Source: Capillimicrobium parvum (GTDB taxonomy: Bacteria > Actinomycetota > Thermoleophilia > Solirubrobacterales > Solirubrobacteraceae). From it: 64,000 bases of DNA. The stretch is from contig NZ_CP087164.1 of assembly GCF_021172045.1 (NCBI RefSeq), positions 3,100,001-3,164,000 on the forward strand, written 5' to 3'. The notes beneath the pieces are model-generated. The model searched no databases, was not told where the DNA came from, and saw only the letters and a program-made list of their open reading frames with translations. Made by a program: the position numbers and the translations under genes. Below are positions 45,133 to 63,971 of the stretch, in pieces. Every line of letters starts with the position of its first letter. The first letter of the stretch is position 1.

Positions 45133-45267
45133 CGGAATCACTCCACGGGGGACGTCCAGCAGGTGCTTGACGCCGACTCCCCGTCGCACCCGGAGAAGAT
45201 CCGACGCTGGCACGAGCTCATCGCGAACGATCGTCCGCCGGGTCGAGCTCGTCGCCGGCGCGTCCGT

Positions 45268-45728
45268 GGTCAAGGCCGGCGAGCAGCTCGTGTCCTTCGG
45301 CGAGCGGCGCGCTGGCCGGAGGTGACGGCTCCTTCCATGAAGTCCGTCGTGCCGGTCTCCGCGCCGGCGAACACGATCCGGCCGATGGGGCGGCGCAGGG
45401 TCGCGCCGACGCTGCTCAGCGTGCAGGTCGGGACCTGGCTGCCGCAGCCTCTCGACCAGGGGTCGTCCTCCCAGTTGCGGACGTAGAACTCCTTCGGCGC
45501 CCGCGCCTTGGGCTCGAAGTACGTCTCGAGCGCTTCGAGCGTCAGCGCGCGGGTCGCCTCGTCGCTGGACGGGTCGCCGCCGTACCGGGCGAGCGCGGGC
45601 CCGCTGCCGAAGAACAGCGCGCACAGGATGCCTTCGTCTCCCTCGGTCGGCGACAGGTCCAGGACCAGTGGGATCGAGGCGAGCCCGGAGGCGACGCCGG
45701 CGAGGCCGTCCTCCCGCCACCAGGGTTG
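45268..45728 (-). pseudogene. Flavin monoamine oxidase, C-terminal remnant
   Basis: A start-less stretch reads PWWREDGLAGVASGLASIPL, then CALFFGSGPALARYGGDPSS, FYVRNWEDDPWSRGCGSQVP and GRIVFAGAETGTTDFMEGAV followed by TSGQRAAR. The D-P-W-S-R-G-C and A-G-x-E-T...G-A-x-x-S-G-x-R-A-A elements are the C-terminal FAD-binding signature of amine oxidases. The FAD-binding N-terminal half is missing, and near 45283-45300 the frame shifts: the expected tail HELLAGLDHG continues in another frame. It is a dead fragment. Confidence 0.75.
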
Positions 45729-45988
45729 ACGATCGCCGCGCTGCCCTCCACGAATCGGCCGGTCCAGACGGCGCCGAAATTGCCAAGCGCGTCTACATCA
45801 CGATCGACCAGCAAGCGAGTGACGTCGAAGACTGGTTCTACGCCGTGATGGGAGCGTGCGGGGCCGCTTCTGTGCCCGTCTCCGCCGGCGACGCGCCTCG
45901 GGTCCGGTGCTGCGCGACCCGGACAGCCCGCGCGGCTGGGTACCGGCGGCCGATGGGTCGGCGACGCGGTCCTGAGCCGACCGCTGGA

Positions 45989-46081
45989 TCAGCCGGCGCC
46001 CTGTGCCCCCCAAGGGTTGGCGAGCAGCGCCAACTCGGGTTCGGCGGGGACGCGCACCTCCGCGGGCGGGAACGCCTCCGA
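45989..46081 (-). pseudogene. Short fragment resembling the FAH (fumarylacetoacetate hydrolase) fold
   Basis: About 30 residues, SEAFPPAEVRVPAEPELALL then ANPWG, directly follow the broken end of the alpha-hydroxy-acid oxidase and then stop. The V-P-x-E-P-E-L-A-L string resembles the segment before the metal site of FAH-family hydrolases. The piece is too short for certainty. Between it and the amine-oxidase fragment (45729-45988) I recognise nothing. Confidence 0.3.
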
Positions 46082-46094
46082 CCTCCACGCGGAT

Positions 46095-46853
46095 CCCCCC
46101 GGAGCGACGGATCCACGAGCGAACTGGACCGTTCGATCGTCCTACGCGGCATCGGCTCGGGAATGTGCGCGAATGCCGGCAGCCGCCCTCCCAGGAACTG
46201 TGACGTCCATGCGGGATGCCGCAGCCCGTCGATGATCGTCCGGGCCCCGATCGCCGGCGGCATGGTGAAGCCGTTGCGGGTGTCCCGCTCGCGGCCGCCA
46301 ACTGTCGGGGCGTCGGCGCCGACCAGCAGCGCCCGGTATCCCGCATCCCGCGCGCGTGTAACGATCTCGCGTGACAGGCCCCGGTCGCGCAGCATGTACA
46401 GCTGAAACCACAGCGGTCCCTGTGACGCCGCCGCGACGTCCTCGAGCGGCGTACTCGACATGGTGGAAACGGCGTAGGGCACCCCCGCAGCCGACGCGGC
46501 CCGGGCGACGTCTCGTTCTCCGCCATCACGGATCGCCCGCGTCAAGCCCGTGGGGGCAAGGGCGATCGGCAGGGCCGAGTCGCAGCCGAGTATCTCGGTG
46601 CGAAGATCGATCTCCGACACGTCGCGCATGACCCTCGGCACGAGCTCGAGCTCCTCAAGGGCGGCGCGGTTGCGGCGCACCGTCACCTCGTCCTCGCGCC
46701 ACCCTCGACGAAGTCGAAGACGGCGCGAGGGAGGAACCGCCGAGCCTCCGCACGCAGACCTCCGATGCTGTGACAGCGAGCGAGCCGCCGCCGGTCTCCG
46801 TCCGTGTCGAATGCGGGCCGTCTGATCAGCGCTACGAACTCGCGCACCGTCAC
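46095..46853 (-). pseudogene. FMN-dependent alpha-hydroxy-acid oxidase (LldD-like), frameshifted and truncated
   Basis: The N-terminus (GTG 46853) reads VTVREFVALIRRPAFDTDGD, then RRFLPRAVFDFVEGGA. One missing G near 46693 then causes ARTR and a stop, where the family has E-D-E. The main part continues in the next frame: VTVRRNRAALEELELVPRVM, LPIALAPTGLTRAI, LWFQLYMLRDRGLSREIV and LVGADAPTVGGRERDTRNGF. It breaks after SLVDPSL, before the FMN phosphate and catalytic His/Arg region. Intact relatives oxidise L-lactate or other 2-hydroxy acids. Confidence 0.85.
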
Positions 46854-47011
46854 GCGAACCCCGCCAAGCAACCCATGGTGCCGCTCATCGCGGCAAACGT
46901 AGAGGCGCCCCGTGCCGCCGGTACAGCGCAGCGTCCCAGCCAGTGAGACCGGCGCGGGCGTGGCGGGAGCCAACGGTTTGCCAGCGGCCCGCCACACGAC
47001 CACCGATCCGA

Positions 47012-47041
47012 CGCTCGGCGGGGAGACCCCCCCGCCGAGCG
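47012..47041. terminator. Strong hairpin downstream of the binding-protein gene
   Basis: A perfect 12-bp stem (CGCTCGGCGGGG with CCCCGCCGAGCG) and a 6-nt loop, about 100 bp after the end of the 47144 gene. It is a plausible terminator at the island's edge. The surrounding gap 46854-47143 contains no recognisable gene. Confidence 0.5.
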
Positions 47042-47143
47042 CCAGGCCGATGACGATGAAGGGCTGGACGTCCAGCCTGCTGGGCCCGTCGGCGAGGAGC
47101 CTGTCGAACTTCCCCCGCCGCGCGAGAGAAGATCGACAGACTC

Positions 47144-48532
47144 CTAGAGCCCCTGCTCCTGCTCGATCTTGCGCACCTTGGCGATCTGCGGATCGTCTGC
47201 CGTGACGTCGGCGCACTCGTCCTGGACGACCAGCTTGCCGGCCTTCGGCGTCAGCGTGCGCCCTGTGTTGTTGGGGATGTGCACGGGCGCCTTGCCGTAG
47301 TACCACGGCTTGCACACCAGGTCCGACTTGTAGCCCTTCGTGTCGAGCATCGCCTTGTTGACGCTCTCCTTGTCGATAGGACCGTCGATCGAGAGCAGCC
47401 GGTCGACGGTGAGCTTGGCCAGCACGAAGCCCATCTGACCGAACGACCCCACGGGCACCTTCGGGGCGTACTGATCGTGCACCTTGAGGTAGAGCTGGTT
47501 GTCCGGGCCCGTCGAGTCGACGGTGTTGACCTCGGCGTTGACCAGCAGCTTGCCCTCCCACTCCGGCCCCAGCGCCTGCGCCAGGAAGTCGGTGCTGCAC
47601 GTCGACGAGCAGCCCCACTTCACGCGGCCGGCCAGCCCCTGCTGCTGCGCGGCCTGCATGATCTTCAGCGCCTCGGGCGGCGTGAAGCCGAGCAGCACGC
47701 CGCCGTCAGCGCCCGCCTGCTGCACGAGCGTCAGGGCGATCGAGTTGGCGTCCTGGATCGGCACGTTCTCCTTCGCGAACACCATGGGGACCCCGGCGGC
47801 GTCGGCCACGGACTTGACCCCCTCCGCATACCACTCGGCGCCCGGCGTGCCTGCGGTCGCGAACACGAGCTTCTTGACGCCCTGCTTGATCAGCGCCTGC
47901 GCGCCGCCGTCCAGGCTGTAGCGCGGCCCGAGGTTGATCGAGGCGGAGTTGGGCGTCGAGAAGCACTCAGGGGCGACGCCGACGTTGGTCGTATAGAGGT
48001 CGTTGGCCTCGTAGAACGCGTGGTTCACGGCACAGTCGAGCAGCGAGAAGCTGCCGAGCATCCCCAACACCTTGTCGCTCGTGACGAGCTTTCTCGCCAG
48101 GCCGGCGATCTGCCCCGGATCGCTCTGCTCCTCCTCGACGATGTACTGGATCGGGCGACCCTTGATGCCGCCGTTGGAGTTGACGCAGTCGTAGAACGCC
48201 TGCGCCATGTTGGATGCATCGGTGAAGTCCGTGCCGGGCTGCTTGGTGACGATGGAGCCGATCTTGATCGGCTCCCCCGTGGCCTTCTGGCCGTTGCCAA
48301 GACCGCACTTCAACTCGCCGCCCGTGCTGGCTGTGGTCGACGCACCCGTGCTGGCCGTGGTCGACGCACCCGTGCTGGCCGTCGTGGACGCGGCGGTGCT
48401 CGCCGACGTCGCGGCGGTGGTGCCGGACTGGTTGTCGCTGCCGCCGCACGCCGCGAGCGCCGCGCTCGCCGCAAGCAGCGCCATCGCCGTCACCGCCCAC
48501 CGGACCCAGACCTGACCGGGATCTCTCCTCAT
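47144..48532 (-). CDS. ABC-type solute-binding lipoprotein (branched-chain amino acid/urea-like, Peripla_BP_6)
   Basis: A protein of 462 residues. The lipoprotein signal is WAVTAMALLAASAALAAC; a Ser/Thr/Ala repeat linker follows. The periplasmic-binding domain contains GEPIKIGSIVTKQPGTDFTD, GGIKGRPIQYIVEEEQSDPG, VLGMLGSFSLLDCAVNHAFY and KLVFATAGTPGAEWYAEGVK. Such proteins usually bind amino acids, amides or aromatic acids for a LivHMGF-type transporter, but no permease or ATPase gene is nearby. GAGGAGC precedes the ATG. The promoter (48639-48668) overlaps operator site 1, so it should respond to the island's regulator. Confidence 0.85.
   Translation of the reverse strand: MRRDPGQVWVRWAVTAMALLAASAALAACGGSDNQSGTTAATSASTAASTTASTGASTTASTGASTTASTGGELKCGLGNGQKATGEPIKIGSIVTKQPGTDFTDASNMAQAFYDCVNSNGGIKGRPIQYIVEEEQSDPGQIAGLARKLVTSDKVLGMLGSFSLLDCAVNHAFYEANDLYTTNVGVAPECFSTPNSASINLGPRYSLDGGAQALIKQGVKKLVFATAGTPGAEWYAEGVKSVADAAGVPMVFAKENVPIQDANSIALTLVQQAGADGGVLLGFTPPEALKIMQAAQQQGLAGRVKWGCSSTCSTDFLAQALGPEWEGKLLVNAEVNTVDSTGPDNQLYLKVHDQYAPKVPVGSFGQMGFVLAKLTVDRLLSIDGPIDKESVNKAMLDTKGYKSDLVCKPWYYGKAPVHIPNNTGRTLTPKAGKLVVQDECADVTADDPQIAKVRKIEQEQGL
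48321..48392 (-). repeat. Three 24-bp repeats coding for a Ser/Thr linker
   Basis: Copies at 48321-48344, 48345-48368 and 48369-48392 (first two differ at one base). They encode A-S-T-T-A-S-T-G-type linker units between the lipid anchor and binding domain. Confidence 0.8.
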
Positions 48533-48638
48533 CGCTCCTCCTCGTCTGCCTTGTGCGCCGGCGCGCGTGTGATCCGCTGCGCTGGGCGATCACGCCCGGA
48601 CGGCCGACTCACGGCCGCCGGCTGCGCTCACGGTGAGG

Positions 48639-48668
48639 ACCGTAGACAAAATCTGTACACGCTGTCAA
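48639..48668 (-). promoter_or_regulatory. Promoter of the solute-binding protein gene
   Basis: On the minus strand TTGACA (48663-48668), an 18-bp spacer and TACGGT (48639-48644). The -35 box lies inside operator site 1. Confidence 0.55.
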
Positions 48669-48669
48669 G
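48653..48669. promoter_or_regulatory. Operator site 1 of the catabolic island
   Basis: CTGTACACGCTGTCAAG. Its reverse complement matches site 2 (51862-51878) at 16 of 17 positions. It is an imperfect palindrome around ACA-nnn-TGT and lies between the divergent binding-protein and P450 genes. Confidence 0.65.
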
Positions 48670-48716
48670 CTAAGCGCCGACGGTCGCCACAACTTCGAGG
48701 AGGAGAGAGTCGCCCG

Positions 48717-49901
48717 ATGCCACCCGTCACCAGCGCCCCACCCACGCATGACCTGGATCTCTTCGCCGACGAGGTTCTCGTCGATCCGTATCCCGCGTAC
48801 GCGGAGCTGCGAGAGCTCGCCGGCGCCGTCCACCTGCCGGCCAACGACGTGTACGCGCTGACGCGCTACGACGTGATCCGCGGTGCGCTCGCGGACTGGG
48901 AGACGTTCTCGTCAGCCTCGATCGGGTTCAACCCGATGGTCAACGAGGCGCTCACCGGAACGTCGCTCGCGTCCGATCCACCGGTCCACACCCAGCTGCG
49001 AGCCGTCCTGACCGAGAACCTGACCCCGCGCGCCCTGCGCGGCCTGAAGGACACGATCGACGCGAAGGCCGACGCCCTCGTGGCCGGGCTCGTCGAGCGG
49101 CGCTCCTTCGAGGCGATCGACGCCCTCGCCCGGGCGTTCCCGCTCGAGGTCGTCGCCGACCTCATCGGCTTCACCGGCCAGGTCCGCGACAACATGCTGC
49201 GCTGGGGCCAGGCCGCGATGGAGGTCATCGGCCCGATGAACGCCCGCACCGCCGAGAACTTCCCCATCGCCGGCGAGCTCTACGGCTGGTGCTCGACCGT
49301 GACCGCCGACGACCTCGCGCCCGGCTCGGTGGGACGCGGCATCTTCGACGCCGAGGCGCGGGGCGACATCCCGCCGGACACGGCGGGCCACATCATCCAC
49401 CAGTACCTCGGCGCGGGCGTCGACACGACGGTCGCGGTGATCGGCAACGTCGTCGCGCTCCTCGGGAAGCATCCCGACCAGCTGGCGCTCGTCCGCCAGG
49501 ACCCTGCGCTCGTGCCGGCCGCGTTCAACGAGGTGCTCCGCTTCTGGCCGCCGATCCACGCCTGGGGCCGTCGCGCGACGAAGGACGTCGAGGTCGACGG
49601 CGTCGTCGTTCCCGCCGGCGCGCAGATCGCCATCCTCTTCGGCGCGGGCAACCACGACCCGCGCCACTACGAGAACCCGGACGACTTCCTGGTCGAGCGC
49701 AACCCTGTCGACCACCTCACGTTCGGCTACGGGGTCCACGGCTGCGCGGGCCAGGGACTCGCCCGCATGGAGGGGCACGCCGTGATCGCGGCGCTGGCCC
49801 GGCACGCCGAGCGGCTCGTGGTCGGCGACGAGGCGCGCGTTCCGAGCAACATCACCCGGAGCATCCACGAGCTCCCCGTCCTGGAAGTGGTGCGAGCATG
49901 A
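48717..49901 (+). CDS. Cytochrome P450
   Basis: A protein of 394 residues, soluble bacterial type. The I-helix oxygen-binding motif is LGAGVDTT (231-238), the K-helix E-x-x-R is EVLR (272-275), and the heme ligand is Cys343 in FGYGVHGCAGQGLARME. ATG 48717 follows GAGGAGAGAG, a clear ribosome binding site. It should hydroxylate, epoxidise or dealkylate the island's substrate, receiving electrons from the next two genes. The ferredoxin ATG overlaps its stop (ATGA). It is divergent from the solute-binding protein across operator site 1. Confidence 0.95.
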   Translation: MPPVTSAPPTHDLDLFADEVLVDPYPAYAELRELAGAVHLPANDVYALTRYDVIRGALADWETFSSASIGFNPMVNEALTGTSLASDPPVHTQLRAVLTENLTPRALRGLKDTIDAKADALVAGLVERRSFEAIDALARAFPLEVVADLIGFTGQVRDNMLRWGQAAMEVIGPMNARTAENFPIAGELYGWCSTVTADDLAPGSVGRGIFDAEARGDIPPDTAGHIIHQYLGAGVDTTVAVIGNVVALLGKHPDQLALVRQDPALVPAAFNEVLRFWPPIHAWGRRATKDVEVDGVVVPAGAQIAILFGAGNHDPRHYENPDDFLVERNPVDHLTFGYGVHGCAGQGLARMEGHAVIAALARHAERLVVGDEARVPSNITRSIHELPVLEVVRA

Positions 49902-50086
49902 AGATCGTCCTCGATCGAGCCCGCTGTGAGGGTCACGGCCTGTGCGAGGAGGCCGCCCCGGACCTGATGCACCTCGACGACGATGGCGAGCTGGTGATCG
50001 ACCGCGAGGAGATCACCGAGGCCGAGCTGGCCGCCGCGAACGCCGCCGTGCGGGTATGCCCGGTGGCGGCACTGCGGATCGAATGA
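49898..50086 (+). CDS. Small ferredoxin with C-x-x-H-x-x-C cluster motif
   Basis: A protein of 62 residues. The cluster residues are C10, H13 and C16 in CEGHGLC, then C54 in VRVCPVAAL. A histidine replaces the second cysteine of the standard 4Fe-4S motif, as in the P450-partner ferredoxins of actinobacteria that carry 3Fe-4S or His-ligated clusters. Its position between the P450 and its reductase leaves little doubt about its role. Both ends overlap neighbours by ATGA. Confidence 0.95.
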   Translation: MKIVLDRARCEGHGLCEEAAPDLMHLDDDGELVIDREEITEAELAAANAAVRVCPVAALRIE

Positions 50087-51243
50087 GCGCCGCCGCGATC
50101 AGGCGGATCGTCGTCGTCGGCAACGGGATCGCCGGCCTGACGGCCGCGGACTCGCTGCGCGGCGCGGGGTTCGACGGCGAGCTGACGATCATCGGCGACG
50201 AGCGCCATCCGGCCTGCAGCCGCCCGGCTCTGTCGAAGGCACTGCTCAGCGACTGCGCCGACCTGACGTCCCATCAGCTGCCCGCACCGACGCACGGCGC
50301 GCTCGAGATCGCCGGTCGTCGTGCCTGCGGGCTCGACGCCGAGCGCCGGCGCGTGGCCCTCGACGATGGCACCGAGCTGCCCTACGACCGGCTCGTGGTG
50401 GCCACGGGCTCGCGCGCGCGTCGCCTGTCCGACCTGGCCGGCGAGCTCACCCTGCGTGGGCTCGACGACGCGCTCGCCCTGCGCGAGCGCCTCGCCGCAC
50501 GGCCGTCGGTCGTCGTCGTCGGAGGCGGACCGCTCGGCATGGAGGTCGCGTCGGGCTGCGTGGCCGCCCGCTGCCAGGTGACGGTCGTCTCTCAGGGCAT
50601 GCCACTCGAGATGCAGCTGGGCCCGCACCTCGCCAGGGTCTTCGCCGAGGCCGCGCAGGGTCGGGGCGTCGCCCTCGTGCAGACCGAGTCGGCGCGCCTG
50701 GAGGAGCACGGCGGCGCGACGAGGGTCGTCCTCGAGGAGGACATCGTCCTGGAGGCGGAGCTCGTCGTCTCTGCCGTCGGCGACGTCCCGAACACGGAGT
50801 GGCTGGCCGGCACGAGCCTCGTCACCGACGGCGTCGTCCGCGTCGACGCCCGCGGGCTCGCACGACCGGACGTCGCGGCCGTCGGAGACCTCGCCGTCTT
50901 CCCGACGCCGTACGGCATGCGGCGGATCCCGCTGTGGAGCACCGCGATCGCGCACAGCAAGGTGGCGGCCGCGGCGCTCGTCCACGGCGAGGCGGCGCCG
51001 CCGCTGCAGTTCCAGCCGTACTTCTGGACCGAGCAGTTCGGGCTGAGCCTCAAGGCCGTCGGGTTCCTGCCGCTGAACGGCCCGCCCGTCTATGTCGACG
51101 GCGGGCCCGGAGGCCCCGCGCTGATGCGCTGGACCCACGAGGACGGCCGCGGCGCCGCGGCCGCGCTGAACTACCGGATCCCGATCCCGCGGTTGCGGCG
51201 GATCACGGAGGACGCGGCTACCGGCGCTCGCCGAGCAGCGTGA
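50083..51243 (+). CDS. NAD(P)H-ferredoxin reductase (FAD)
   Basis: A protein of 386 residues of the putidaredoxin-reductase/rubredoxin-reductase type. FAD motif IVVVGNGIAGLTAADSLRGA, then RHPACSRPALSKALL, LVVATGSRARRL, the NAD(P) motif SVVVVGGGPLGMEVASG and AAVGDLAVFPT. The C-terminal domain contains FWTEQFGLSLKAVGFL. It passes electrons from NAD(P)H to the ferredoxin. Its last 26 bp overlap the convergent TetR gene. Confidence 0.95.
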   Translation: MSAAAIRRIVVVGNGIAGLTAADSLRGAGFDGELTIIGDERHPACSRPALSKALLSDCADLTSHQLPAPTHGALEIAGRRACGLDAERRRVALDDGTELPYDRLVVATGSRARRLSDLAGELTLRGLDDALALRERLAARPSVVVVGGGPLGMEVASGCVAARCQVTVVSQGMPLEMQLGPHLARVFAEAAQGRGVALVQTESARLEEHGGATRVVLEEDIVLEAELVVSAVGDVPNTEWLAGTSLVTDGVVRVDARGLARPDVAAVGDLAVFPTPYGMRRIPLWSTAIAHSKVAAAALVHGEAAPPLQFQPYFWTEQFGLSLKAVGFLPLNGPPVYVDGGPGGPALMRWTHEDGRGAAAALNYRIPIPRLRRITEDAATGARRAA

Positions 51244-51832
51244 CCCACGTCTCGGTGAGGAGATCGAGCTCCGGCCCGCTGTCGAGGTCCCACGGGTCGC
51301 GCATCCAGTGCAGCGCCGTCCGGTCGAGGGTCTCCATCGCGAGAAAGCCGCGGAAGTGGCGTGTCTCGGGAGCGTGGCGGTCGGCGAGGTTCATGCCGTC
51401 GACCATGTCGCCGATGACCTCCTCGAACCACCCCTCGTAGAGCTGGCGGATCTCCGGATCGACGGCGGCGGCCTGGGTGCTGACGAGGATGTACGGCTTG
51501 ATCTGCGGCCACCTCGAGGCCTGCGTCGCGAGCCAGGGCTTCAGCGCGGCGGCGGTCCCGATCTGCACCGCCTCGACCAGCTTCGACGCGGTCGAGCCGT
51601 GCGCCTCCGAGGTGTGGCGGTCGAGGAGCTCGTTGAGCTCGTCGATGAGCGCCACCATGACGTCGCGCTTGCCGGGGAAGCGCGCGTAGAACGTCACCCG
51701 CGTCGTCCCGGCCCGGGCGGCGATCTCCTCGACGGTGGTCGCCACATAGCCCTTCTGCTGGAACAGCGCGAGTGCCGTCTCGAGGATCTGCTTCCGCGTC
51801 CGCTCCTTGCGCAGTGCGCGGAGGCCGGTCAT
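51218..51832 (-). CDS. TetR-family regulator of the catabolic island
   Basis: A protein of 204 residues. LRKERTRKQILETALALFQQ, then KGYVATTVEEIAARAGTTRV and TFYARFPGKRDVMVALI are the DNA-binding helices. The rest is a ligand-binding domain (LATQASRWPQIKPYILVS, YEGWFEEVIGDMVDGMNL). The ATG at 51832 lies 30 bp from operator site 2; GTG 51841 is an alternative. Its place between the two operons, divergent from one and tail-to-tail with the other, makes it the likely repressor acting at both operator sites, with a pathway compound as inducer. Confidence 0.9.
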   Translation of the reverse strand: MTGLRALRKERTRKQILETALALFQQKGYVATTVEEIAARAGTTRVTFYARFPGKRDVMVALIDELNELLDRHTSEAHGSTASKLVEAVQIGTAAALKPWLATQASRWPQIKPYILVSTQAAAVDPEIRQLYEGWFEEVIGDMVDGMNLADRHAPETRHFRGFLAMETLDRTALHWMRDPWDLDSGPELDLLTETWVTLLGERR

Positions 51833-51861
51833 GCGGGGCACCTTAACGAACGACGCGTTTT

Positions 51862-51878
51862 CTTGACAGCGTGTAAAG
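51862..51878. promoter_or_regulatory. Operator site 2 of the catabolic island
   Basis: CTTGACAGCGTGTAAAG, an imperfect palindrome (C-T-T-n-A-C-A-n-n-n-T-G-T-n-A-A-G, 6 of 8 base pairs symmetric). It sits between TetR and the hydrolase operon. Confidence 0.7.
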
Positions 51879-51892
51879 CGTTTGCGTATCTT
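51863..51892 (+). promoter_or_regulatory. Promoter of the hydrolase operon, leaderless
   Basis: TTGACA (51863-51868), an 18-bp spacer and TATCTT (51887-51892), then 7 bp to the GTG at 51900. The -35 box is inside operator site 2, so a bound repressor would block RNA polymerase. Confidence 0.7.
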
Positions 51893-51899
51893 CGAGACC

Positions 51900-52871
51900 G
51901 TGAACAAGAGGGTCAACACCGTTCTCGGTCCCGTTGCGGCCGACGAGCTCGGGGTCGTCGCGGTCCACGAGGCGCTGCTCTCGGTCATCCCCGGAGCGGA
52001 GCACGCATACGACGTCACCATCGATCGCGCCGCTATCTTCGAGCGTCTCGCCGGCAAGCTGGACGAGTTCCGCCGCCACGGCGGCGGGACGATCGTGGAC
52101 AGCACGGGCATGTTCCACGGCCGTGACGTCCGGCTGTACGAGGCCCTCTCGCGCTCGACGGGCGTGCACATCGTCGCGTCGACGGGCATGGGCCCGGAGG
52201 AGATGCTCGGCGGGTACTTCCTCACGCCGCAGACGAATCCGCCGACCCCCTGGTCGGCGGAGATGTTCGCCGACCTCTTCGCCAGGGAGGTCACCGAGGG
52301 CATGGTGGTCCCGCGGGTCGAGCGGCGCGGCGGGGCCGGGCTCGTCGCCACGGCCGCCGACCGAGCGGGCATGACGGCCACCGAGGAGAGCCTGTTCCGG
52401 GGCGCCGCCCAGGCGGCCCTCGCCACCGGGGTTCCGGTCTCCATCCGCTACGGGGCCGATGCGGTGCGCGAGCTCGACATCGTCCTGGGCGAGCGCCTGC
52501 CTGCCGGCCGGGTCGTCGTCGGCGGCCTGGACCGCACGGACGCCGCAGGCAGCGGAGCCCCGCTCGACGTGGCGCGCCGGGGCGCGTTCGTCGCGCTCGA
52601 CCACGTCGGCCGCGACGACGACGGCGCCTACCTGACCGACCGCGACCGGGCCGCGCTCGTGGCTGAGCTGGTCGACGCAGGCCACGCGGACCGCATCCTG
52701 CTTTCTAGCAGCGCGATCGGCGCGGCCAAGGGCCAACCGGACGACGCACTGCCCTACAGCCATGTCCTGTCCGGCTTCGTGCCGCTCCTGATGTCGCACG
52801 GGCTCGGCGACGCGGATGTCCGGCGCCTCCTGGTGGACAACCCGCGCGAGCTGCTGTCCACGGTCTCCTGA
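51900..52871 (+). CDS. Phosphotriesterase-family paralogue lacking the metal ligands (probable pseudoenzyme)
   Basis: A protein of 323 residues that aligns along its length with the next gene product (VNTVLGPVAADELGVVAVHE versus VNTVLGPIPTEELGFVAVHE; ending LLVDNPRELLSTVS versus LFVDNPASFLTIQS). The family binds two metals through H-x-H, a carboxylated Lys, two His and an Asp. Here H23 remains, but the other positions are A25, A150, R183, G209 and S271. It therefore cannot hold the usual binuclear site. The frame is intact and it is first in the operon, so it is unlikely to be a simple pseudogene; a structural partner or sensor role is possible. Confidence 0.85.
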   Translation: MNKRVNTVLGPVAADELGVVAVHEALLSVIPGAEHAYDVTIDRAAIFERLAGKLDEFRRHGGGTIVDSTGMFHGRDVRLYEALSRSTGVHIVASTGMGPEEMLGGYFLTPQTNPPTPWSAEMFADLFAREVTEGMVVPRVERRGGAGLVATAADRAGMTATEESLFRGAAQAALATGVPVSIRYGADAVRELDIVLGERLPAGRVVVGGLDRTDAAGSGAPLDVARRGAFVALDHVGRDDDGAYLTDRDRAALVAELVDAGHADRILLSSSAIGAAKGQPDDALPYSHVLSGFVPLLMSHGLGDADVRRLLVDNPRELLSTVS

Positions 52872-52882
52872 AGGGGCATGTC

Positions 52883-53836
52883 GTGTCGAGAGTGAACACC
52901 GTCCTGGGGCCCATCCCGACCGAGGAGCTCGGGTTCGTGGCGGTCCACGAGCACATCGGGTACGGCATGCCCGGCTGCGAGCTGGACACGAAGTGGTGGA
53001 AGACGCCGGAGGAGCGCTACGAGGAGACCGTCCCGAAGCTGCGCCGGTTCCACGAGTACGGGGGCGGGACCTTCGTCGATGCCACCGGCATCTGCAACGG
53101 CCGCGACGTCGACTACTACAAGTCGCTGGCGGCCAGGACCGGTGTGCACATCGTCGCCTGCACCGGGTTCGTCGGCGGCGACACCGCGCTTGCGTTCTTC
53201 GCCCGGGCGAGCGTCGAGTACCTGACCCGGCAGTTCGTCCACGAGATCACCGTCGGCATCGGCGACACCGGCAGCAAGGCGGGCATCATCAAGGTGGGCG
53301 TCAGTCGCGGCTTTCGCATGACGGACCTCGACAAGCGCATCTACCGGGCCGCCGCCCGCGCCGCGGTCACCACGGGCGTGCCCATCTTCACGCACCTCGC
53401 CGTCGACTCGGAGCCGGCGATCGACATCTTCCGCGAGGAGGGCCTCTCGCTCGACCGGGTCCTCTTCGGGCACGCCGACGATGGCGTGAGCCAGGGGAAG
53501 GTGCGTGACACCGAGATCGCCGACCAGGGCGGCCGGATCGGCTTCGACACCTTCGGCTACGACCTCGAGCTGCCCGACCCGCCGTTCTGGGGGCGCCCGC
53601 GCAAGGAGCGGCTCGATCACCTCCTGCGCTTCATCCGCGGTGGCTATCTCGATCGGGTGCTGGCCTCGGCCGACGCCAACTGCAGCCCGCTGGGGTGGCC
53701 GGGCGTCAAGGGGCACACCGTGAACTACCTCTTCGAGGAGCTCATCCCCGACCTGCGAGAGGCCGGGATCGACGAGGCGACGATCACCACGCTGTTCGTC
53801 GACAACCCGGCCAGCTTCCTCACGATCCAGAGCTAA
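52883..53836 (+). CDS. Phosphotriesterase-family metallohydrolase (lactonase/amidohydrolase-like)
   Basis: A protein of 317 residues. All metal ligands are visible: H22 and H24 (VHEH), K137 (GIIKVGVS, the carboxylated lysine), H171 (IFTHLAV), H197 (LFGHADD) and D264 (ASADAN). The start V-N-T-V-L-G-P-I and end L-F-V-D-N-P-A-S-F-L are standard. Family members hydrolyse lactones, esters, amides or organophosphates. AAGGGGC precedes the GTG start. It lies 11 bp after its degenerate paralogue, so both are made together. Confidence 0.92.
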   Translation: MSRVNTVLGPIPTEELGFVAVHEHIGYGMPGCELDTKWWKTPEERYEETVPKLRRFHEYGGGTFVDATGICNGRDVDYYKSLAARTGVHIVACTGFVGGDTALAFFARASVEYLTRQFVHEITVGIGDTGSKAGIIKVGVSRGFRMTDLDKRIYRAAARAAVTTGVPIFTHLAVDSEPAIDIFREEGLSLDRVLFGHADDGVSQGKVRDTEIADQGGRIGFDTFGYDLELPDPPFWGRPRKERLDHLLRFIRGGYLDRVLASADANCSPLGWPGVKGHTVNYLFEELIPDLREAGIDEATITTLFVDNPASFLTIQS

Positions 53837-53848
53837 GGGCAAGGAACC

Positions 53849-54955
53849 ATGCACCCCTCAGACCTGAAGGACCTGAAGGTCGCCGTCGTGGGCGGCGGGT
53901 ACGGCGGCGCCGCCGCCGCCGCGGCGCTGCGCAACATCGGCGTGGGCGACGTCCACGTGTACGAACGGGCGGCCGCGGTTCGCGAGGTCGGCGCCGGCAT
54001 CGGCCTGCGTCCGGCGACGGTGGAGCTGTTCCGCAAGTGGGGCATCTACGAGGCGATCGCCGCGGTGACCTCGCCCAGCGACTCCTTCGAGATCCTCACC
54101 GCCACCGGCCACGTCCTCCACCGCGAGGAATGGCCTGCCTCCGAGCACGAGACCAAGACCCGCTTCGTCCACCGCGACGACTTCATCAACGCGTTCCTCG
54201 ACGTCCTGCCCGCGGGCATGCTGCACATCGGCCGGCGGGTGACCGGCATCGAGGACGGCACGGAGCGCGCGACGGTGGTCTTCGCCGATGGGGCGTCGGT
54301 GACCGCGGATCTCGTGATCGGGGCGGACGGCATCCGCTCGCTCGTGCGCCAGCAGCTGTTCTCCGACGTTCCCCCCGTGTTCTCGGAATCCCACGCCTAC
54401 CGGGCGGTGATCTCCGCCGACGACACCTACGGTATGACGATCGACGACAACCTACGCCTCTACATCGGCGACAACGGCACGACGATCTACTTCCTGCCCC
54501 TGCGCCACCGCAACCAGGTGTCCTTCGACATCACGGCACCCTCCGCCGATGCATCCTGGTCCCCCGAGATCACCAAGGCCGACCTCATGCGGCTGGTCGA
54601 GGGCTTCGACGAGCGGCTGCAGAGCATCACGCGTGACCTGGACATGGACCTGGTCACGAGCCGGGCGGTGTACGACATCGACCCGATCGACACCTGGCAC
54701 ACGGACTGCGTCGCCCTGCTCGGCGATGCGGCGCACGCGATGCTCCACCATCAGGGCCAGGGCGCGAACTCGGCCATCACCGACGCCGGCGCCCTGGCTG
54801 ACGCCCTGGTCAAGGCGGACTCGGTCAAGGCGGCGCTGGTCGAGTACCAGGCGGTCCGCAAGCCGGTGACCGACGAGCTGCAGCGCATCTCCCGGCTGGG
54901 CTGGGACGCCGGAGCCGTCGAGACGGCGTTCCCCGGCCAGAAGGGTGCGGAGTAG
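53849..54955 (+). CDS. FAD-dependent monooxygenase (group A, salicylate-hydroxylase-like)
   Basis: A protein of 368 residues. FAD motif VAVVGGGYGGAAAAAALRNI, the D-G motif DLVIGADGIRSLVRQQLF, and the G-D motif VALLGDAAHAMLHHQGQGAN. The middle domain contains RAVISADDTYGMTIDDNLRL. Group A enzymes hydroxylate aromatic rings or oxidise activated rings with NAD(P)H and oxygen. Its place after a lactonase-like hydrolase suggests it works on a hydrolysis product. 12 bp separate it from the upstream gene. Confidence 0.92.
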   Translation: MHPSDLKDLKVAVVGGGYGGAAAAAALRNIGVGDVHVYERAAAVREVGAGIGLRPATVELFRKWGIYEAIAAVTSPSDSFEILTATGHVLHREEWPASEHETKTRFVHRDDFINAFLDVLPAGMLHIGRRVTGIEDGTERATVVFADGASVTADLVIGADGIRSLVRQQLFSDVPPVFSESHAYRAVISADDTYGMTIDDNLRLYIGDNGTTIYFLPLRHRNQVSFDITAPSADASWSPEITKADLMRLVEGFDERLQSITRDLDMDLVTSRAVYDIDPIDTWHTDCVALLGDAAHAMLHHQGQGANSAITDAGALADALVKADSVKAALVEYQAVRKPVTDELQRISRLGWDAGAVETAFPGQKGAE

Positions 54956-54959
54956 CGCC

Positions 54960-55850
54960 ATGCCCCTGCACCCTGAAGTCGCCCGGGTCGTCGTCACGAT
55001 GCCCGCACCGCCCGACGAGCTTGACCCGGTGGCGATGCGCGCCGACCAGGAGGCACACGTGCCGCCCCTCGACGAGCGCCTCCCGCTGGCCGCGGTGCAG
55101 GACGCGACCGCGGGTGACGTGCCGGTGCGGATCTACACGCCGACCGGCGCCGACGGCTGGCTCGTGTACATCCACGGCGGCGCGTTCTTCCTCGGCAGCC
55201 TCGACACCCACGACCATGTCGCTCGATCGCTGGCCGAGGCGACCGGGGCCACGGTGGTCTCCGTCGGCTATCGCCTGGCGCCGGAGGCGCCATACCCGGC
55301 GGGTCTCGACGACTGCTACGCCGTGGTCCGGTGGATGGCCGAGCACGGCAGGACGATGGCGATCGCCGGCGACAGCTCGGGCGCGAACTTCGTCGCCGCC
55401 GTCGCCGCGATGGCGCACGACGACGACCTCGACGCCATCACCGATCAGATCCTCTACTACCCCTCACTCGACCTGGACTTCGACCCGGACCGCTACGCCT
55501 CCCTGCGCGAGAACGCCGTCGGCTACGGGCTGGAGACCGTGGGGCTGAAGCCCTTCAACGCCTTCTACGTCGACAGCGGCGCGGACCCGGCGGATCCGCT
55601 CGTCTCCCCCATCAAGCGCGCAGACCTGACCGGGCTGCCGCGCGCCCTCGTCGTGACCGCCGAATATGACCCCATGCGCGACGAGGGGGAGCTGTACGCG
55701 CGACGGCTGAGCGAGGCCGGCGTGGATGTCGTGCTCAGCCGGTACGCCGGCGCCGGCCACGGCTTCGTCGAGCACTTCTCCTGGATCCCCGAGTTCCACC
55801 GGGTCTTCGAGGAGACGCGCGACTTCCTCGATCGGACGAGCACACCATGA
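54960..55850 (+). CDS. Alpha/beta hydrolase (hormone-sensitive-lipase family esterase)
   Basis: A protein of 296 residues. Oxyanion-hole motif LVYIHGGAFFLGSLDTH (H-G-G-A at 72-75), nucleophile Ser139 in IAGDSSGANF, an acid in VVTAEYDPMRDEGELYARRL and the His in GAGHGFVEHFS. This is a complete family IV esterase triad. It should cleave an ester of small or medium size. A GGAG stretch precedes the ATG, and its end overlaps the MBL gene (ATGA). Confidence 0.93.
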   Translation: MPLHPEVARVVVTMPAPPDELDPVAMRADQEAHVPPLDERLPLAAVQDATAGDVPVRIYTPTGADGWLVYIHGGAFFLGSLDTHDHVARSLAEATGATVVSVGYRLAPEAPYPAGLDDCYAVVRWMAEHGRTMAIAGDSSGANFVAAVAAMAHDDDLDAITDQILYYPSLDLDFDPDRYASLRENAVGYGLETVGLKPFNAFYVDSGADPADPLVSPIKRADLTGLPRALVVTAEYDPMRDEGELYARRLSEAGVDVVLSRYAGAGHGFVEHFSWIPEFHRVFEETRDFLDRTSTP

Positions 55851-56779
55851 CGCAGCCGGCGAGCATCCATCCGCTGCCCGCGCGGTGGGGCGACTTCACG
55901 CTGGGCAGCTACTTCATCGCCGCGCCCGAGCCGGCCATCGTCGACACCGGGATCGCCTCGACGCCGGCCGAGGTGATCGCTCCTCGGCTCGAGGAGCTCG
56001 GGCACCGGGTCGAGGACGTCCGCTGGATCCTGCTGACGCACGGCCACATCGACCATGTCGGCGGCGCCCATGCGCTCTGGGAGCTCACGGGTCGCCGCGC
56101 GCAGGTCGTGATCCACGAGGCCGATGCGCCGTTCCTGCGTTCGCGCCGGGCGCATGTCGACGAGTACGTCGGCGGCCGTCAGCGCTATCTGCGGGATCCG
56201 AACGGCGTCGCGCAGCTGACGCGGGCCACCGAGGCGGTGATATCGGGAGAGATGGAGCCATCCGTGGTCCTGACGGGAGGCGAGACGCTCTCCCTCGGCG
56301 GGGAGGTGTCGGTCTCGGTCCACCATGTGCCGGGTCACACGGCGGGAGCGGTCGCGTACGTCGTCGACGGCTCCAACGACGTGTTCGTCGGCGACGCCGT
56401 GGAGATCAACGGCGGCAACGGCTTTCCGACCTACGAGGACCCGGTCGGCTATCGCGCCGGCCTGGAGCACCTGCGCGACGTCGTACGCCCGAACCGCATG
56501 TTCCTGGGCCACCCGTTCGTCGGCCGGGACGGGGTGCCCTACAGCATCGAGCTCGACCGCGAGGCGGCGCAGCGGGCGCTGCAGGAGAGCCTGGACATCG
56601 AGGCGCGCATCGCCGGGCTTGCAGCGCGCTGTCTGGCCGACGGCCTGCAGGAGACCGACTCGGTCTACTCGCCGTTCGCGCTGGTCGCCGAAGAGCTCGG
56701 CTACGAGCGCGATCCGAGCCTGGAGCCGTCGCCGTTCTTCACCACGCTGCACGGCTATCGGCAGGCGGCTCGCGCATGA
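55847..56779 (+). CDS. Metallo-beta-lactamase-fold hydrolase
   Basis: A protein of 310 residues. Metal-site motifs: LLTHGHIDHVGGA (H-x-H-x-D-H), HHVPGHTAGAVAYV, VFVGDAVEI and MFLGHPFVG. All binuclear ligands are present. Related proteins act as lactonases, thioesterases or glyoxalase II. The C-terminal third is helical and contains PFALVAEELGYERDPSLEPS. It overlaps both neighbours by ATGA. Confidence 0.9.
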   Translation: MTQPASIHPLPARWGDFTLGSYFIAAPEPAIVDTGIASTPAEVIAPRLEELGHRVEDVRWILLTHGHIDHVGGAHALWELTGRRAQVVIHEADAPFLRSRRAHVDEYVGGRQRYLRDPNGVAQLTRATEAVISGEMEPSVVLTGGETLSLGGEVSVSVHHVPGHTAGAVAYVVDGSNDVFVGDAVEINGGNGFPTYEDPVGYRAGLEHLRDVVRPNRMFLGHPFVGRDGVPYSIELDREAAQRALQESLDIEARIAGLAARCLADGLQETDSVYSPFALVAEELGYERDPSLEPSPFFTTLHGYRQAARA

Positions 56780-58458
56780 CGGAGATCACGATTCGCAAGG
56801 ACCTACAGGTCGCGATGCGCGACGGGGTCATGCTCGCGGTCGACGTCTACCAGGGAACCGAGGACAAGCCGCGGCCTGCGCTCGTCGCGATGAGCCCCTA
56901 CGGCAAGGACCTCCAGGCGCAGTCGCTCGAGCTCCCGCCGCAGCGGCGTCCCAGCCCGCTGTGGGACGGCTGCCTCGAGGCCGGGGACATCGCGCGCATC
57001 GTCGCCGAGGACTACGCCCACGTGATCGCCGATCTGCGCGGGTCCGGCGCGTCCGGCGGCGAGATGGTCGGCAACTACAACGCCGGCGGCGTCCCGCTCG
57101 GCCAGGACGCCTACGACCTCATCGAATGGGTCGCGCAGCAGCCGTGGTGCGACGGCAACGTCGGCATGGTCGGGGTCTCCTACTTCGCCTCCATGCAGGT
57201 GTTCGCCGCCGCCGAGCGGCCCCCGCATCTGAAGGCGATCTTCGTGAGCGGCGGCCACTACGACTTCTACGAGACCACCTACCACGGCGGCATCATGTGG
57301 TTCATGCCGCGCGCCGCCCGAGAGGGCCGCGGCGGCGACTCCGGCATCGCCGTCGCGGACGTCAGGTCGCGCATGCTCGCGGAGTACTCGGCGGAGGAGG
57401 TCGCGCAGCGCGTGGCGGCACGGCTCGCCGACCCCGACGTCAAGCGGTGGCCGACCCTGGAGCACGTCCTGCGGTACCCGAAGAACCGCGAGCTGTGGTT
57501 CGACATCGTCCTCAACGAGCTCGACGGCGACTGGTACGAGGAGCGCAACCCCATCACGCTCGCCCGGAACATCGACATCCCCGTCTATGTGCAGATCAAC
57601 TGGGGTCGCGGCTGGACGGTCGACGGCAGCATCGAGCTCTTCAAGACGCTCAAGGGCCCGAAGAAGCTCGACCTGCTGCCCTACCCGCCGATGCAGGAGC
57701 GCCCGTTTCACGAGGTCCACGGCGACATGTTCCGCTGGTACGACCACTGGCTGAAGGGCGTCGAGAACGGCGTGATGGACGAGCCGGCCGTCAGCATCTT
57801 CGTCGAGGGCACGCGCGAGCGGGTGACCGTCGACGACTGGCCGCCCCAGGGGGTCGAGCATCGGCCGCTGTACCTGCGTCCCCGGCGCAAGCTGTCGGCG
57901 ACGCCCGAACCGCTGGACACCGAGTGGGCCGCCCCGGACGGCTTCTACCAGGCGCCCCTGACCGTGACGGACAAGGTGGAGATGCTGACGTGGTCCACCG
58001 AGCCGTTCGAGGCGACGACGCAGATGGTCGGCACCGGCGCCGCCCATCTCTTCGTGGAGATCGACACCGACGACACGAATCTCATCCTGCGTCTGTGGGA
58101 CGAGGCTCCGGGCGGCGGTCGTCAGCTCGTCACGACCGGCTACCTCAAGGCATCGCATCGCGAGCTCGACGACCGCACCACGGAGGGCAACCCCTACCAC
58201 CCGCACACCCGTGCCGTGCCGGTCGAGCCCGGGCGCGTCGAGGAGTACGTGGTCCGGCTGTATCCGTTCGCCAACGCCTTCCGACCGGACCATCGCCTCG
58301 TGGTCGAGTTGTCGTGCAACGAGCCGCTGGTCGACGCCCACAACTCGCTGCTGCCCCCCGAGGCGATGCACCTGCCGTCCGGGCGCGCGACGGGCCACAA
58401 GATCTACCGCGATGCGACGCACCATTCGCGGCTCGTGCTGCCCTTCACGACCGACTGA
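56776..58458 (+). CDS. CocE/NonD-type hydrolase (X-Pro dipeptidyl-peptidase S15 family)
   Basis: A protein of 560 residues. The N-terminal alpha/beta-hydrolase domain has VAMRDGVMLAVDVYQG, YAHVIADLRGSGASGGEM and the nucleophile Ser135 in GMVGVSYFASMQVF. FHEVHGDMFRWYDHWLKGVE holds the probable catalytic His. The C-terminal jelly-roll (LYLRPRRKLSATPEP onward, about 375-560) is the S15 domain. CocE enzymes hydrolyse bulky esters (cocaine-like), others hydrolyse amides. It ends the operon. Confidence 0.92.
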   Translation: MTEITIRKDLQVAMRDGVMLAVDVYQGTEDKPRPALVAMSPYGKDLQAQSLELPPQRRPSPLWDGCLEAGDIARIVAEDYAHVIADLRGSGASGGEMVGNYNAGGVPLGQDAYDLIEWVAQQPWCDGNVGMVGVSYFASMQVFAAAERPPHLKAIFVSGGHYDFYETTYHGGIMWFMPRAAREGRGGDSGIAVADVRSRMLAEYSAEEVAQRVAARLADPDVKRWPTLEHVLRYPKNRELWFDIVLNELDGDWYEERNPITLARNIDIPVYVQINWGRGWTVDGSIELFKTLKGPKKLDLLPYPPMQERPFHEVHGDMFRWYDHWLKGVENGVMDEPAVSIFVEGTRERVTVDDWPPQGVEHRPLYLRPRRKLSATPEPLDTEWAAPDGFYQAPLTVTDKVEMLTWSTEPFEATTQMVGTGAAHLFVEIDTDDTNLILRLWDEAPGGGRQLVTTGYLKASHRELDDRTTEGNPYHPHTRAVPVEPGRVEEYVVRLYPFANAFRPDHRLVVELSCNEPLVDAHNSLLPPEAMHLPSGRATGHKIYRDATHHSRLVLPFTTD

Positions 58459-58593
58459 CCGTGACGCCCCGGCCGAGCGCTCAACCAACGACAGCGACCG
58501 CCTCCGGGGCAGGGAGCTCCGCTCACGACGCCTGCCGCCCGCTCCCGCCGCCTGCGGCATCGGATGAGCAGGCCGTCTGAGCGACCGCTCCTT

Positions 58594-60039
58594 TCAGCGG
58601 GCGTACTCGATCGCCCGTGACTCCCGGATGACGGTCACCTTGATCTGGCCGGGGTACTCGAGCTCCTTCTCGATCTCGCGGGCGATCTCGTGGGAGAGCA
58701 CCACCGCGGCGTCGTCGTCGATCGCTCCCGGCTGGACCATGATGCGGATCTCGCGGCCGGCCTGCATCGCGTAGACCTTGTCGACGCCGGGGTGCCGGGT
58801 CGCGATCTGCTCGAGGTCGCGCAGGCGCTTCACGTACTGCTCCAGCGACTCGCCGCGCGCACCCGGGCGGGCGCCCGAGAGCGCGTCGGCGGCCTGGACG
58901 ATCACCGCTTCGACGGTCTGGGGCTCGACCTCGTTGTGATGCGCCTCCATTGCGTGGGCGACGGCCTCCGACTCGGAGTGGCGGCGGGCGAGCTCGCCCC
59001 CGACGAGCGCGTGCGGCCCCTCGACCTCGTGGGAGACGGCCTTGCCGATGTCGTGCAGGAGCGCCGCGCGGCGGGCGGTCTTCGCGCTGGCGCCGAGCTC
59101 GTCGGCCATGAGCGCGGCGAGATGCGCCGTCTCGACCGAGTGGGCGAGCACGTTCTGGCCGTAGCTCGTGCGGAACTTGAGGCGGCCGAGCATCTTCACG
59201 AGCTCGGGATCGAGCCCGCCGACGTTGGCCTCGAGGACGGCGGCCTCGCCCTCCTCGAGCATGTGGCTCTCGAGCTCGGACTTCGCCTGGTAGTAGGTCT
59301 CCTCGATGCGGGCGGGATGGATGCGCCCGTCCTGCAGGAGGCGCTCGAGGGTCATGCGGGCGATCTCGCGGCGGACCCCGTCGAATCCGGAGAGCACGAC
59401 CGCGTTGGGTGTGTCGTCGATGATGAAATCGACGCCGGTGAGGTTCTCGAGCGCGCGGATGTTGCGGCCCTCACGGCCGATGATGCGCCCCTTCATGTCG
59501 TCGGAGGTCAGCTGGACGACGGAGACCGTGGTCTCGGCGGCGTGGCTCGCGGCGAGCCGCTGCATCGCGATCGAGAGGATCGAGCGGACGCGGCGCTCGG
59601 CCTCGCGCTTGGTCTCCTCCTCGATGGAACGCAGCAGCTTGGCGTGCGCGTGGCGCGCCTCCTCCTCGATCTCGCGCAGCAGGAGGGTCTTGGCCTGGGA
59701 GGCGCTGAGCCCGGAGACGCGCTCGAGCTCGCGCTGCAGCAGCGCGCGGTCGCGTCCGAGCCGCTCGCGGGCCTCGCTGAGCTGCGCGCGGTCGGCATCG
59801 ACCTCGCTGACGCGCTTGTCGAGCTCGAGCGTCCGGCGCTCGAGGTCGCGCGCCTGGCGGGCGAGCTCCTCGGCCGCGGAGCTCTGCCGCTGAGCGTCCT
59901 CGGCGGCCGCCTCGGCGCGCTCGGCCGACGCCTCGGCGCGCGCGAGAGGTGGCGCAGCTGCCCCCCGCCCACGTGCCACCAGCGCGGCCGCGGCGACGAA
60001 GCCCACGGCGAGCACGATGGCCGCAATCAGTATCTCCAT
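58594..60039 (-). CDS. rny: Ribonuclease Y
   Basis: A protein of 481 residues. An N-terminal membrane anchor ([20 protein letters not shown]) is followed by a long coiled coil (about 30-165), a KH domain ([20 protein letters not shown]) and an HD domain ([38 protein letters not shown]). It is an endonuclease for mRNA turnover. GGGAGG precedes the ATG at 60039. A CCGCCG-CAAG-CGGCGG hairpin (60055-60070) sits in the leader just upstream of the ribosome binding site and could affect translation or mRNA stability. Confidence 0.95.
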
Positions 60040-60491
60040 CCCCGGTTCCTCCCTCCGCCGCAAGCGGCGGCAGGTTCGTATCAGCGTATGGAGCGACCGA
60101 CGGGCCCCGCGGGGCACGACTACGACGGGCATCGCGGCGGCAGCCGCGTATCAGCAGACGACGAAGGTGGCTGATTGAGAGGTTGAGACCCGGGTCCTTT
60201 TCCCGGCGAATGAGTGTCTGGACGTCGTCACGTTCTGAGACCGTCGTGTCAGAATCTACGGATTTGCTGCGGTTTCATGCCCCGAAGGGTCCTATCGTTC
60301 GCTGCCCGGCATCCTAGCCCTGGACGGCCTTGTGCGCAATCGAACGATGTGGTTCAAACGGCGGCGCACGAGGTCTTGTGCGGAGGCGGGCGCAGCGAGC
60401 GGCCGCGCCCTGTCGCTGACGGGAGGCCACCCCCTCTGACTGACGAGCGGCCGCGCCCTGCCGCGCCCTCCCACTGACGCCAGGCCTCCCT

Positions 60492-60600
60492 CTCTCACTG
60501 ACGAGAGACCGCGCCCCTCTCACTGACGAGAGGCCGCGCCCTTCTGACTGACGAGAGGCCGCGCCCCTCTCACTGACGAGAGGCCGCACCCCTCTCACCG
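60492..60600. repeat. 25-bp tandem repeat array with hairpin units
   Basis: Four full units (60492, 60517, 60542, 60567) and a partial fifth (60592) of the type CTCTCACTGACGAGAGGCCG followed by CGCCC. Each unit except the third holds a CTCTC/GAGAG inverted repeat. More diverged copies reach back to about 60399. The array abuts and includes the stop codon of the 60595 gene and is upstream of rny. The remaining gap (60040-60398) shows no gene; it should carry the rny promoter. Confidence 0.85.
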
Positions 60601-61290
60601 GGGCCGGTGGTACCAGGGGTCGGCGTCGAAGGCGGCGGTGAGCGCGGCCCGGCCGTTCTCGAGCACCGGTTCGCCGTGGGTGACGAGCACACGGTCGAAG
60701 TCGAGCCCGGCGAGCGGGCGCAGCGTCGGCTCGAGCCGCTCGCGCGACCAGCGCAGGCGCGACTCGGTGAGCGGGCGCTGGATCCAGACGCGCAGGCCGC
60801 CACCGTCCGCGGGCTCGACGGCGACCACGGCGTCGCCGAACGCGATCGCCCGTGCCTCCGGGATGAGCAGCGGCATCTCGCGACGCCGCGGGCTTCCGAT
60901 CGCGAACGCCTGGATGCCGTGTGGCAGCTCGTCGCCGGGCGTGATCGCGGCGAACGGCGCGTCGCCCTGGAGGCGGTCGCCGACCCGCTCATGGCCGATG
61001 ATCCGCACGCCATGGTCGCCACCCCACCGGCGCCACGCCTGCTCGGCGCTGCGGACGTGATACGGGATGGTGATCAAGACGAGCACGTCGCGCGCATCCG
61101 CCACGATCGCGTCGAGGCCTTCCGGCGGTTCGTTGCCGTCGAAGAGCGGATCCACGAGGAGGCAGTCGGCGCCGGCGAGGATCGCGAAGCAGCCGACCTC
61201 CGAGCCGAACCCCGTCAGCGATGGATGCCACTCGGGGTGGCGCAGCGTCCATCGCCAGAGGCCGGGTGCGAGCTGATGCAGCACGGACAT
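60595..61290 (-). CDS. Metallo-beta-lactamase-like protein without the metal-binding motif
   Basis: About 231 residues. SVLHQLAPGLWRWTLRHPEW, GFGSEVGCFAILAGADCLLV and DPLFDGNEPPEGLDAIVADA follow an MBL-fold start, and DRVLVTHGEPVLENGRAAL resembles a C-terminal MBL strand. The position of the H-x-H-x-D-H motif reads TIPYHVRSAEQAW, so the usual metal site is missing. The ATG at 61290 has AGGTGA upstream; ATG 61341 or GTG 61350 would add a short tail. The stop codon lies in the 25-bp repeat array. It is downstream of the LLM gene on the same strand. Confidence 0.7.
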   Translation of the reverse strand: MSVLHQLAPGLWRWTLRHPEWHPSLTGFGSEVGCFAILAGADCLLVDPLFDGNEPPEGLDAIVADARDVLVLITIPYHVRSAEQAWRRWGGDHGVRIIGHERVGDRLQGDAPFAAITPGDELPHGIQAFAIGSPRRREMPLLIPEARAIAFGDAVVAVEPADGGGLRVWIQRPLTESRLRWSRERLEPTLRPLAGLDFDRVLVTHGEPVLENGRAALTAAFDADPWYHRPR

Positions 61291-61354
61291 GGCGCTCACC
61301 TGCCCACTGCCGGCCGGTCGCCGGATCGTGGGGAACGCCATGTCGCGCACCGCG

Positions 61355-62242: not shown

Positions 62243-62316
62243 CGGCGGTCCACCTCGGTGGGGCTACCCGTGCCGCGCGATCCAGAACGGCGCCATCGCG
62301 AATGCGTCGGCCGGCG

Positions 62317-62876: not shown

Positions 62877-63971
<1,095 letters not shown>

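Follow-up and report, generated by a model that had tools for sequence, protein, structure and literature searches.

The Locus and Its Phosphotriesterase Gene Pair

The window, that is, the whole stretch of 64,000 nucleotides of the Capillimicrobium parvum genome that was analyzed, contains two adjoining genes for proteins of the phosphotriesterase (PTE) family (PF02126), here called PTE1 and PTE2, with the following neighbors:

48633..49901, + strand: cytochrome P450, nearest among solved structures to the CYP199 family; the actual start may be further downstream than 48633
49898..50086, + strand: ferredoxin (PF13459)
50083..51243, + strand: ferredoxin reductase (Pyr_redox_2)
51218..51832, − strand: TetR-family regulator, divergent from PTE1 and a conserved neighbor in most loci
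51900..52871, + strand: PTE1, a PF02126 protein without five of the six metal ligands, very likely a maintained pseudoenzyme (open reading frame, PF02126 profile, alignment, AF2 model)
52883..53836, + strand: PTE2, a PF02126 protein with all six metal ligands, predicted to be an active binuclear metallohydrolase (open reading frame, profile, alignment, model)
53849..54955, + strand: FAD monooxygenase (PF01494; profile; accompanies PTE1/PTE2 in 12/12 genomes)
54945..55850, + strand: alpha/beta hydrolase of the hormone-sensitive-lipase type (PF07859; profile, comparison of loci)
55847..56779, + strand: MBL-fold hydrolase (PF00753; profile, comparison of loci)
56776..58458, + strand: CocE/NonD-type hydrolase (PF02129 and PF08530; profile)

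Read as an open reading frame, PTE1 starts with a GTG at 51900 and encodes 323 residues, to which an alternative start, the in-frame TTG at 51882, would add six; PTE2 starts with a GTG at 52883 and encodes 317. The stop of PTE1 and the start of PTE2 are 11 bp apart, and both frames are open, as the initial annotation had described them.

Both proteins give whole-length matches to PF02126 (133.7 bits for PTE1 and 177.1 bits for PTE2, against a curated cut-off of 22.4 bits) and are 33% identical to each other; a Pfam search of PTE1 returned no domain besides this one. The AF2 model of PTE1 is a confident, intact barrel (pLDDT 93.4, pTM 0.92) whose nearest solved structures are phosphotriesterases (Z 42.4, rmsd 1.9 over 300 residues), and the model of PTE2 (pLDDT 88.6) reaches TM scores of 0.84–0.90 to solved PTEs, so that both show the (beta/alpha)8 barrel of that family. 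The only other PTE-family gene of the host genome (G000:C1:51271-52200, − strand) scores far higher, at 291 bits, and has the usual ligands.

Loss of the Metal Site in PTE1

Metal ligands were compared in an alignment of 54 PTE1 and 54 PTE2 orthologs (50 distinct sequences each) and 30 other PTE-family proteins from related genomes. H22, H24, K137, H171, H197, and D264 of PTE2 align with H23, A25, A150, R183, G209, and S271 of PTE1, the first histidine being the sole ligand that PTE1 of the window retains; the residue assignments and numbering first proposed for the two proteins are thus correct throughout. The six PTE2 positions agree with the published set of the lactonase SisLac (His22, His24, carboxylated Lys137, His170, His199, and Asp256; PMC3468530). 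All six ligands are present in 54/54 PTE2 orthologs, whereas every one of the 54 PTE1 orthologs keeps either none or one. At the corresponding sites (PTE2 numbering), PTE1 proteins have Ala or Ser at 24, Ala, Thr, or Val at 137, Arg at 171 and Gly at 197 (52/54 each), and Asn at 264 (43/54). Among the control proteins, the five His/Asp ligands are kept in 30/30 and the bridging position is Lys in 27 and Glu in 3; because the controls keep the ligand set, its loss in PTE1 is not usual for the family, which excludes chance or loose family variation as an explanation. PTE2 therefore belongs to the active family by the features that can be tested in a sequence, and its catalysis is predicted; PTE1 is a PF02126 member by sequence and predicted fold that fails at the metal site.

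A protein of this kind might be an enzyme that needs no metal (a lactonase, isomerase, or lyase, for example) and catalyzes a separate pathway step, using new residues of the former pocket and of its loop 3 (described below). Metal-free members of the amidohydrolase superfamily do exist, such as LigI, a 2-pyrone-4,6-dicarboxylate lactonase that works without metal, and the replacement of a metal-binding His by Arg at position 183 in 52/54 PTE1s would suit such a function. On the other hand, no former metal-ligand position is invariant among the 54 aligned PTE1s: H23 is missing in the Caballeronia protein, R183 is missing in two others, and the position of S271 varies between N, S, and R. We regard a metal-independent PTE1 as unlikely.

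Distribution and Co-Inheritance of the Pair

The initial annotation had proposed a search for the same paired paralogs in other genomes. We found 49 further distinct PTE1 orthologs, in Actinomycetota and on one Caballeronia plasmid, and these are not scattered: every complete one adjoins PTE2 in the same gene order. A PTE1 search of genome contigs gave 42 loci (56–80% identity) in Arthrobacter, Kocuria, Sinomonas, Georgenia, Rhodococcus, Nocardia, Actinomadura, Nocardiopsis, Streptomyces, Geodermatophilus, Okibacterium, Corynebacterium, and others. PTE2 lies directly downstream of PTE1 in 42/42 of them; the FAD monooxygenase and the lipase-like hydrolase then follow in 41, the remaining contig ending earlier, and on contigs of sufficient length the MBL and CocE-type hydrolases almost always come next. 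PTE1 is first throughout, with a spacing of 3 to 57 bp. The shared core operon is thus PTE1-PTE2-FAD monooxygenase-lipase-MBL-CocE, with P450, ferredoxin, and reductase genes close to the pair in about half of the loci. This core is constant, whereas the kinds of flanking regulators (TetR, LysR, GntR, or IclR) and MFS transporters vary by lineage. The plasmid of the betaproteobacterium Caballeronia insecticola carries the complete TetR-P450-ferredoxin-reductase-PTE1-PTE2-monooxygenase-hydrolase-MBL-CocE operon, in which the PTE1 and PTE2 frames overlap by 4 bp.

Within one actinobacterial family (251 genomes), PTE2 and the FAD monooxygenase occur in the same 12 genomes, in each of which a complete or nearly complete PTE1 adjoins PTE2; a thirteenth PTE1 piece is cut by a contig end. 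Across the phylum (396 genomes), PTE1 and PTE2 both occur in the same two. The operon is therefore rare, and its parts travel together. Such strict co-inheritance with a live paralog is what is expected of a prozyme-type activator. A single scan of viral contigs gave no viral relative.

In the 200 nearest relatives of the host genome we found no PTE1 ortholog, the best matches being about 36% identical or less, so that vertical inheritance of the operon in this host was rejected and the genome probably acquired it horizontally. A tRNA-Val gene of 91 nt lies at 43635-43725 (− strand), and GC content, about 0.75 before 44 kb, is lower beyond that point, at about 0.70 (44000-64000); from these two features, the operon may sit in an acquired island beside the tRNA gene. 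Within the same region, an FMN-dependent alpha-hydroxy-acid dehydrogenase gene (PF01070; 45838-46686, − strand, with flanks to about 46900) covers profile positions 22–186 of 350 only and looks broken by frameshifts.

In a phylogenetic tree, PTE1 and PTE2 form one group apart from the other PTEs (94/89), but this join unites two long branches and was flagged as unsafe. In the same tree, PTE2 of the window clusters with its counterparts from Caballeronia and from one actinobacterium (100/99), whereas PTE1 of the window does not; this mismatch stems either from rates that are uneven or from an exchange between copies of the operon.

The operon is probably catabolic and probably handles an aromatic acid or ester. 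This is suggested by the CYP199-like P450, by the kinship of the FAD monooxygenase, whose nearest solved structures are tropone 2-monooxygenase, 6-hydroxynicotinate 3-monooxygenase, and salicylate hydroxylase, by the three further hydrolases, and by gentisate-type ring-cleavage genes beside one copy: in Nocardia miyunensis, a gene that clusters with gentisate-dioxygenase-like cupins, together with an FAA hydrolase gene, adjoins the operon.

Selection on PTE1

Whether nonsynonymous change in PTE1 is constrained had been put forward as a check, and PTE1 does not evolve neutrally: the median dN/dS is 0.26 for PTE1 and 0.20 for PTE2 (Nei–Gojobori, 1088 pairs), the true values probably being lower because high GC compresses dS. 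Median identity to the protein of the window is 74% for PTE1, 80% for PTE2, 63% for the monooxygenase, 69% for the lipase-like hydrolase, 68% for the MBL hydrolase, and 76% for the CocE-type hydrolase, so that PTE1, at 74% against 63–80% for the other core proteins, is constrained about as much as the catalytic members of its operon. PTE1 orthologs are not frameshifted; one, from a frameshift-rich assembly, is seemingly without its N-terminus, and another ends with its contig.

That PTE1 is a decaying duplicate heading for loss is thus refuted by intact frames, co-inheritance with PTE2, and selection, and we give this reading next to no weight. PTE1 does evolve somewhat faster than PTE2, but its 50 distinct orthologs in two phyla are always paired, with dN/dS well under 1. 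The description of PTE1 as a maintained pseudoenzyme has therefore stood: the ligands are lost in all orthologs, the frame and the predicted fold are kept, and selection is purifying, which makes this status very likely on the sequence evidence.

Complementary Loop Conservation in PTE1 and PTE2

Conservation peaks in PTE1 at loop 3, not at the former metal site, and in PTE2 at the start of loop 8:

52188..52259, + strand: PTE1 codons 97–120, MGPEEMLGGYFLTPQTNPPTPWSA, the enlarged, nearly invariant loop 3, proposed to contact the PTE2 active site (entropy, model)
53672..53713, + strand: PTE2 codons 264–277, DANCSPLGWPGVKG, the start of loop 8, which holds ligand D264; most conserved stretch of PTE2 (mean entropy 0.01 bits)

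Residues 97–120 of PTE1, between strand 3 and helix 3, are its least variable part, with a mean entropy of 0.14 bits against 0.80 for the whole protein; the nearly invariant stretch of the enlarged loop is GGYFLTPQTNPPTPW, and the entropy falls to 0.03 bits for LGGYFLTPQTNP. Counted in the alignment from the flanking Thr-Gly to the Phe of helix 3, the loop is eight residues longer than in SsoPox or PTE2. The three divergent PTE1s that lack R183 or H23 retain GGYFLTPQTNPPTPWPA letter for letter, and a nearly invariant loop of 15 residues is also at odds with a decaying duplicate. The monomer model has its lowest confidence in loop 3 (pLDDT 69–75), as would be expected if a partner orders this loop. 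When windows are ranked by variability, loop 3 falls in the lowest 1% and loop 8 at 62% in PTE1, whereas in PTE2 loop 8 falls in the lowest 1% and loop 3 at 32%; 12 ordinary relatives show neither pattern (41% and 84%). A second conserved stretch specific to PTE1, GMVVPRxERR (residues 134–145; 52299-52334), lies between helix 3 and strand 4 and is perhaps another contact surface.

In the SsoPox dimer, F104 of one monomer is in contact with W263 of the other, a residue from the start of loop 8 (PMC3781021); in the alignment, PTE1 loop 3 corresponds to the segment that includes F104. The SisLac dimer has its two active sites near each other, and second-shell residues join in the dimer (PMC3468530); a phosphotriesterase variant that is monomeric and has one zinc lacks activity (PMC10619419). 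The loop asymmetry is the pattern expected if PTE1 gives its loop 3 to the PTE2 active site and receives nothing in return and, taken with the known dimer contact of PTEs and PTE-like lactonases (PLLs), it lends indirect support to the heterodimer that the initial annotation had suggested; in this heterodimer, PTE1 would complete or cap the PTE2 site. Were PTE1 instead a metal-independent enzyme, the invariant residues in which loop 3 is rich could serve it, but the complementary asymmetry of the two proteins would be a coincidence.

Proposed Role of PTE1

On balance, and by a slight preference, we interpret PTE1 as a long-maintained, metal-less paralog that acts as a noncatalytic, prozyme-like subunit of PTE2 in a catabolic operon. 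PTE1 and PTE2 would heterodimerize by the PTE/PLL dimer surface; PTE2 would hold two metals and carry out the hydrolysis of a lactone, ester, or amide; and PTE1 would dock its enlarged, nearly invariant loop 3 on loop 8 of PTE2, where the loop may complete, cap, or activate the pocket and thereby set activity or specificity. Several observations weigh against a prozyme-like subunit. Special conservation of PTE1 does not extend to the bulk of the known dimer interface: the phosphotriesterase interface segments are 60–79 and 301–313 (PMC10619419), and the PTE1 residues aligned to them are not conserved to an unusual degree. Conservation of PTE2 loop 8 would be expected anyway, since it bears the ligand D264; PTE1 loop 3 may form part of the pocket of PTE1 itself, where it could serve a ligand; and gene pairing by itself is also compatible with two separate functions in one pathway.

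PTE1 might instead be a noncatalytic ligand-binding protein (a sensor, carrier, or product scavenger) without contact to PTE2, in agreement with the intact barrel of the model and the nearly invariant loop at the pocket mouth. We consider this quite unlikely, as a TetR regulator, and often a LysR or GntR one, is already there, no extra Pfam domain accompanies the barrel, and the former ligand positions hold varying residues. Substrate binding by PTE1, which the initial annotation had also considered, may occur, but its former metal site has no invariant position. PTE1 might also heteromerize with PTE2 for stability or assembly only, as a structural chaperone that leaves the active site unaffected; the constant PTE1-first order and the close or overlapping frames suit co-translational assembly, but conservation is highest in the pocket-mouth loop and not in the body of the dimer surface, which makes this role improbable.

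The prozyme-like reading has a stronger form, to which we accord slightly less than an even chance: an obligate heteromeric PTE-family hydrolase, encoded by a widely transferred operon, in which a metal-free subunit of PTE fold donates a nearly invariant loop to the active site of its metal-bearing paralog.

Comparison with Known Systems

Enzyme evolution and the detoxification of organophosphates both have a main model in the phosphotriesterase family. In the open-licence literature, we found no described pseudo-PTE, heteromeric PTE, or PTE1/PTE2 operon; the pair would, if the proposal is true, be to our knowledge the first heteromeric, pseudoenzyme-dependent member of the family. It marks an uncharacterized conserved operon that has moved between phyla. 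The importance of dimerization in the family has been called unclear (PMC3468530), and a natural pair in which just one half carries the metal site would offer a direct way to test it.

With PTEs and PTE-like lactonases (PF02126; 1HZY, SsoPox 2VC5, Mycobacterium tuberculosis PHP 4IF2), PTE1 and PTE2 share family and barrel (Z about 42), and PTE2 shares the full ligand set. However, the studied enzymes are metal-dependent homodimers, whereas PTE1 has no binuclear site, has an enlarged loop 3, and is always found beside a second PTE. Other pseudoenzymes of the amidohydrolase superfamily are the CRMPs and the inactive dihydroorotase-like subunits of some aspartate transcarbamoylases, which have lost metal ligands and retained the barrel and an oligomeric role, but in other families, with other partners, and in other pathways than PTE1. 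LigI, in turn, is an active enzyme of another family, whereas PTE1 gives no hint of a fixed new catalytic residue among its former ligand positions. The closest likeness in kind, though not in kinship, is to the trypanosome AdoMetDC prozyme and the dead paralog of deoxyhypusine synthase, which activate their live partners, the latter about 3000-fold (PMC5201418, PMC3663545). There, too, a dead paralog is paired with an active relative; those proteins are eukaryotic and of unrelated folds, and complex formation and activation, which we infer for PTE1/PTE2, were shown for them. The pair described here would thus exhibit prozyme-like dependence in bacterial catabolism.
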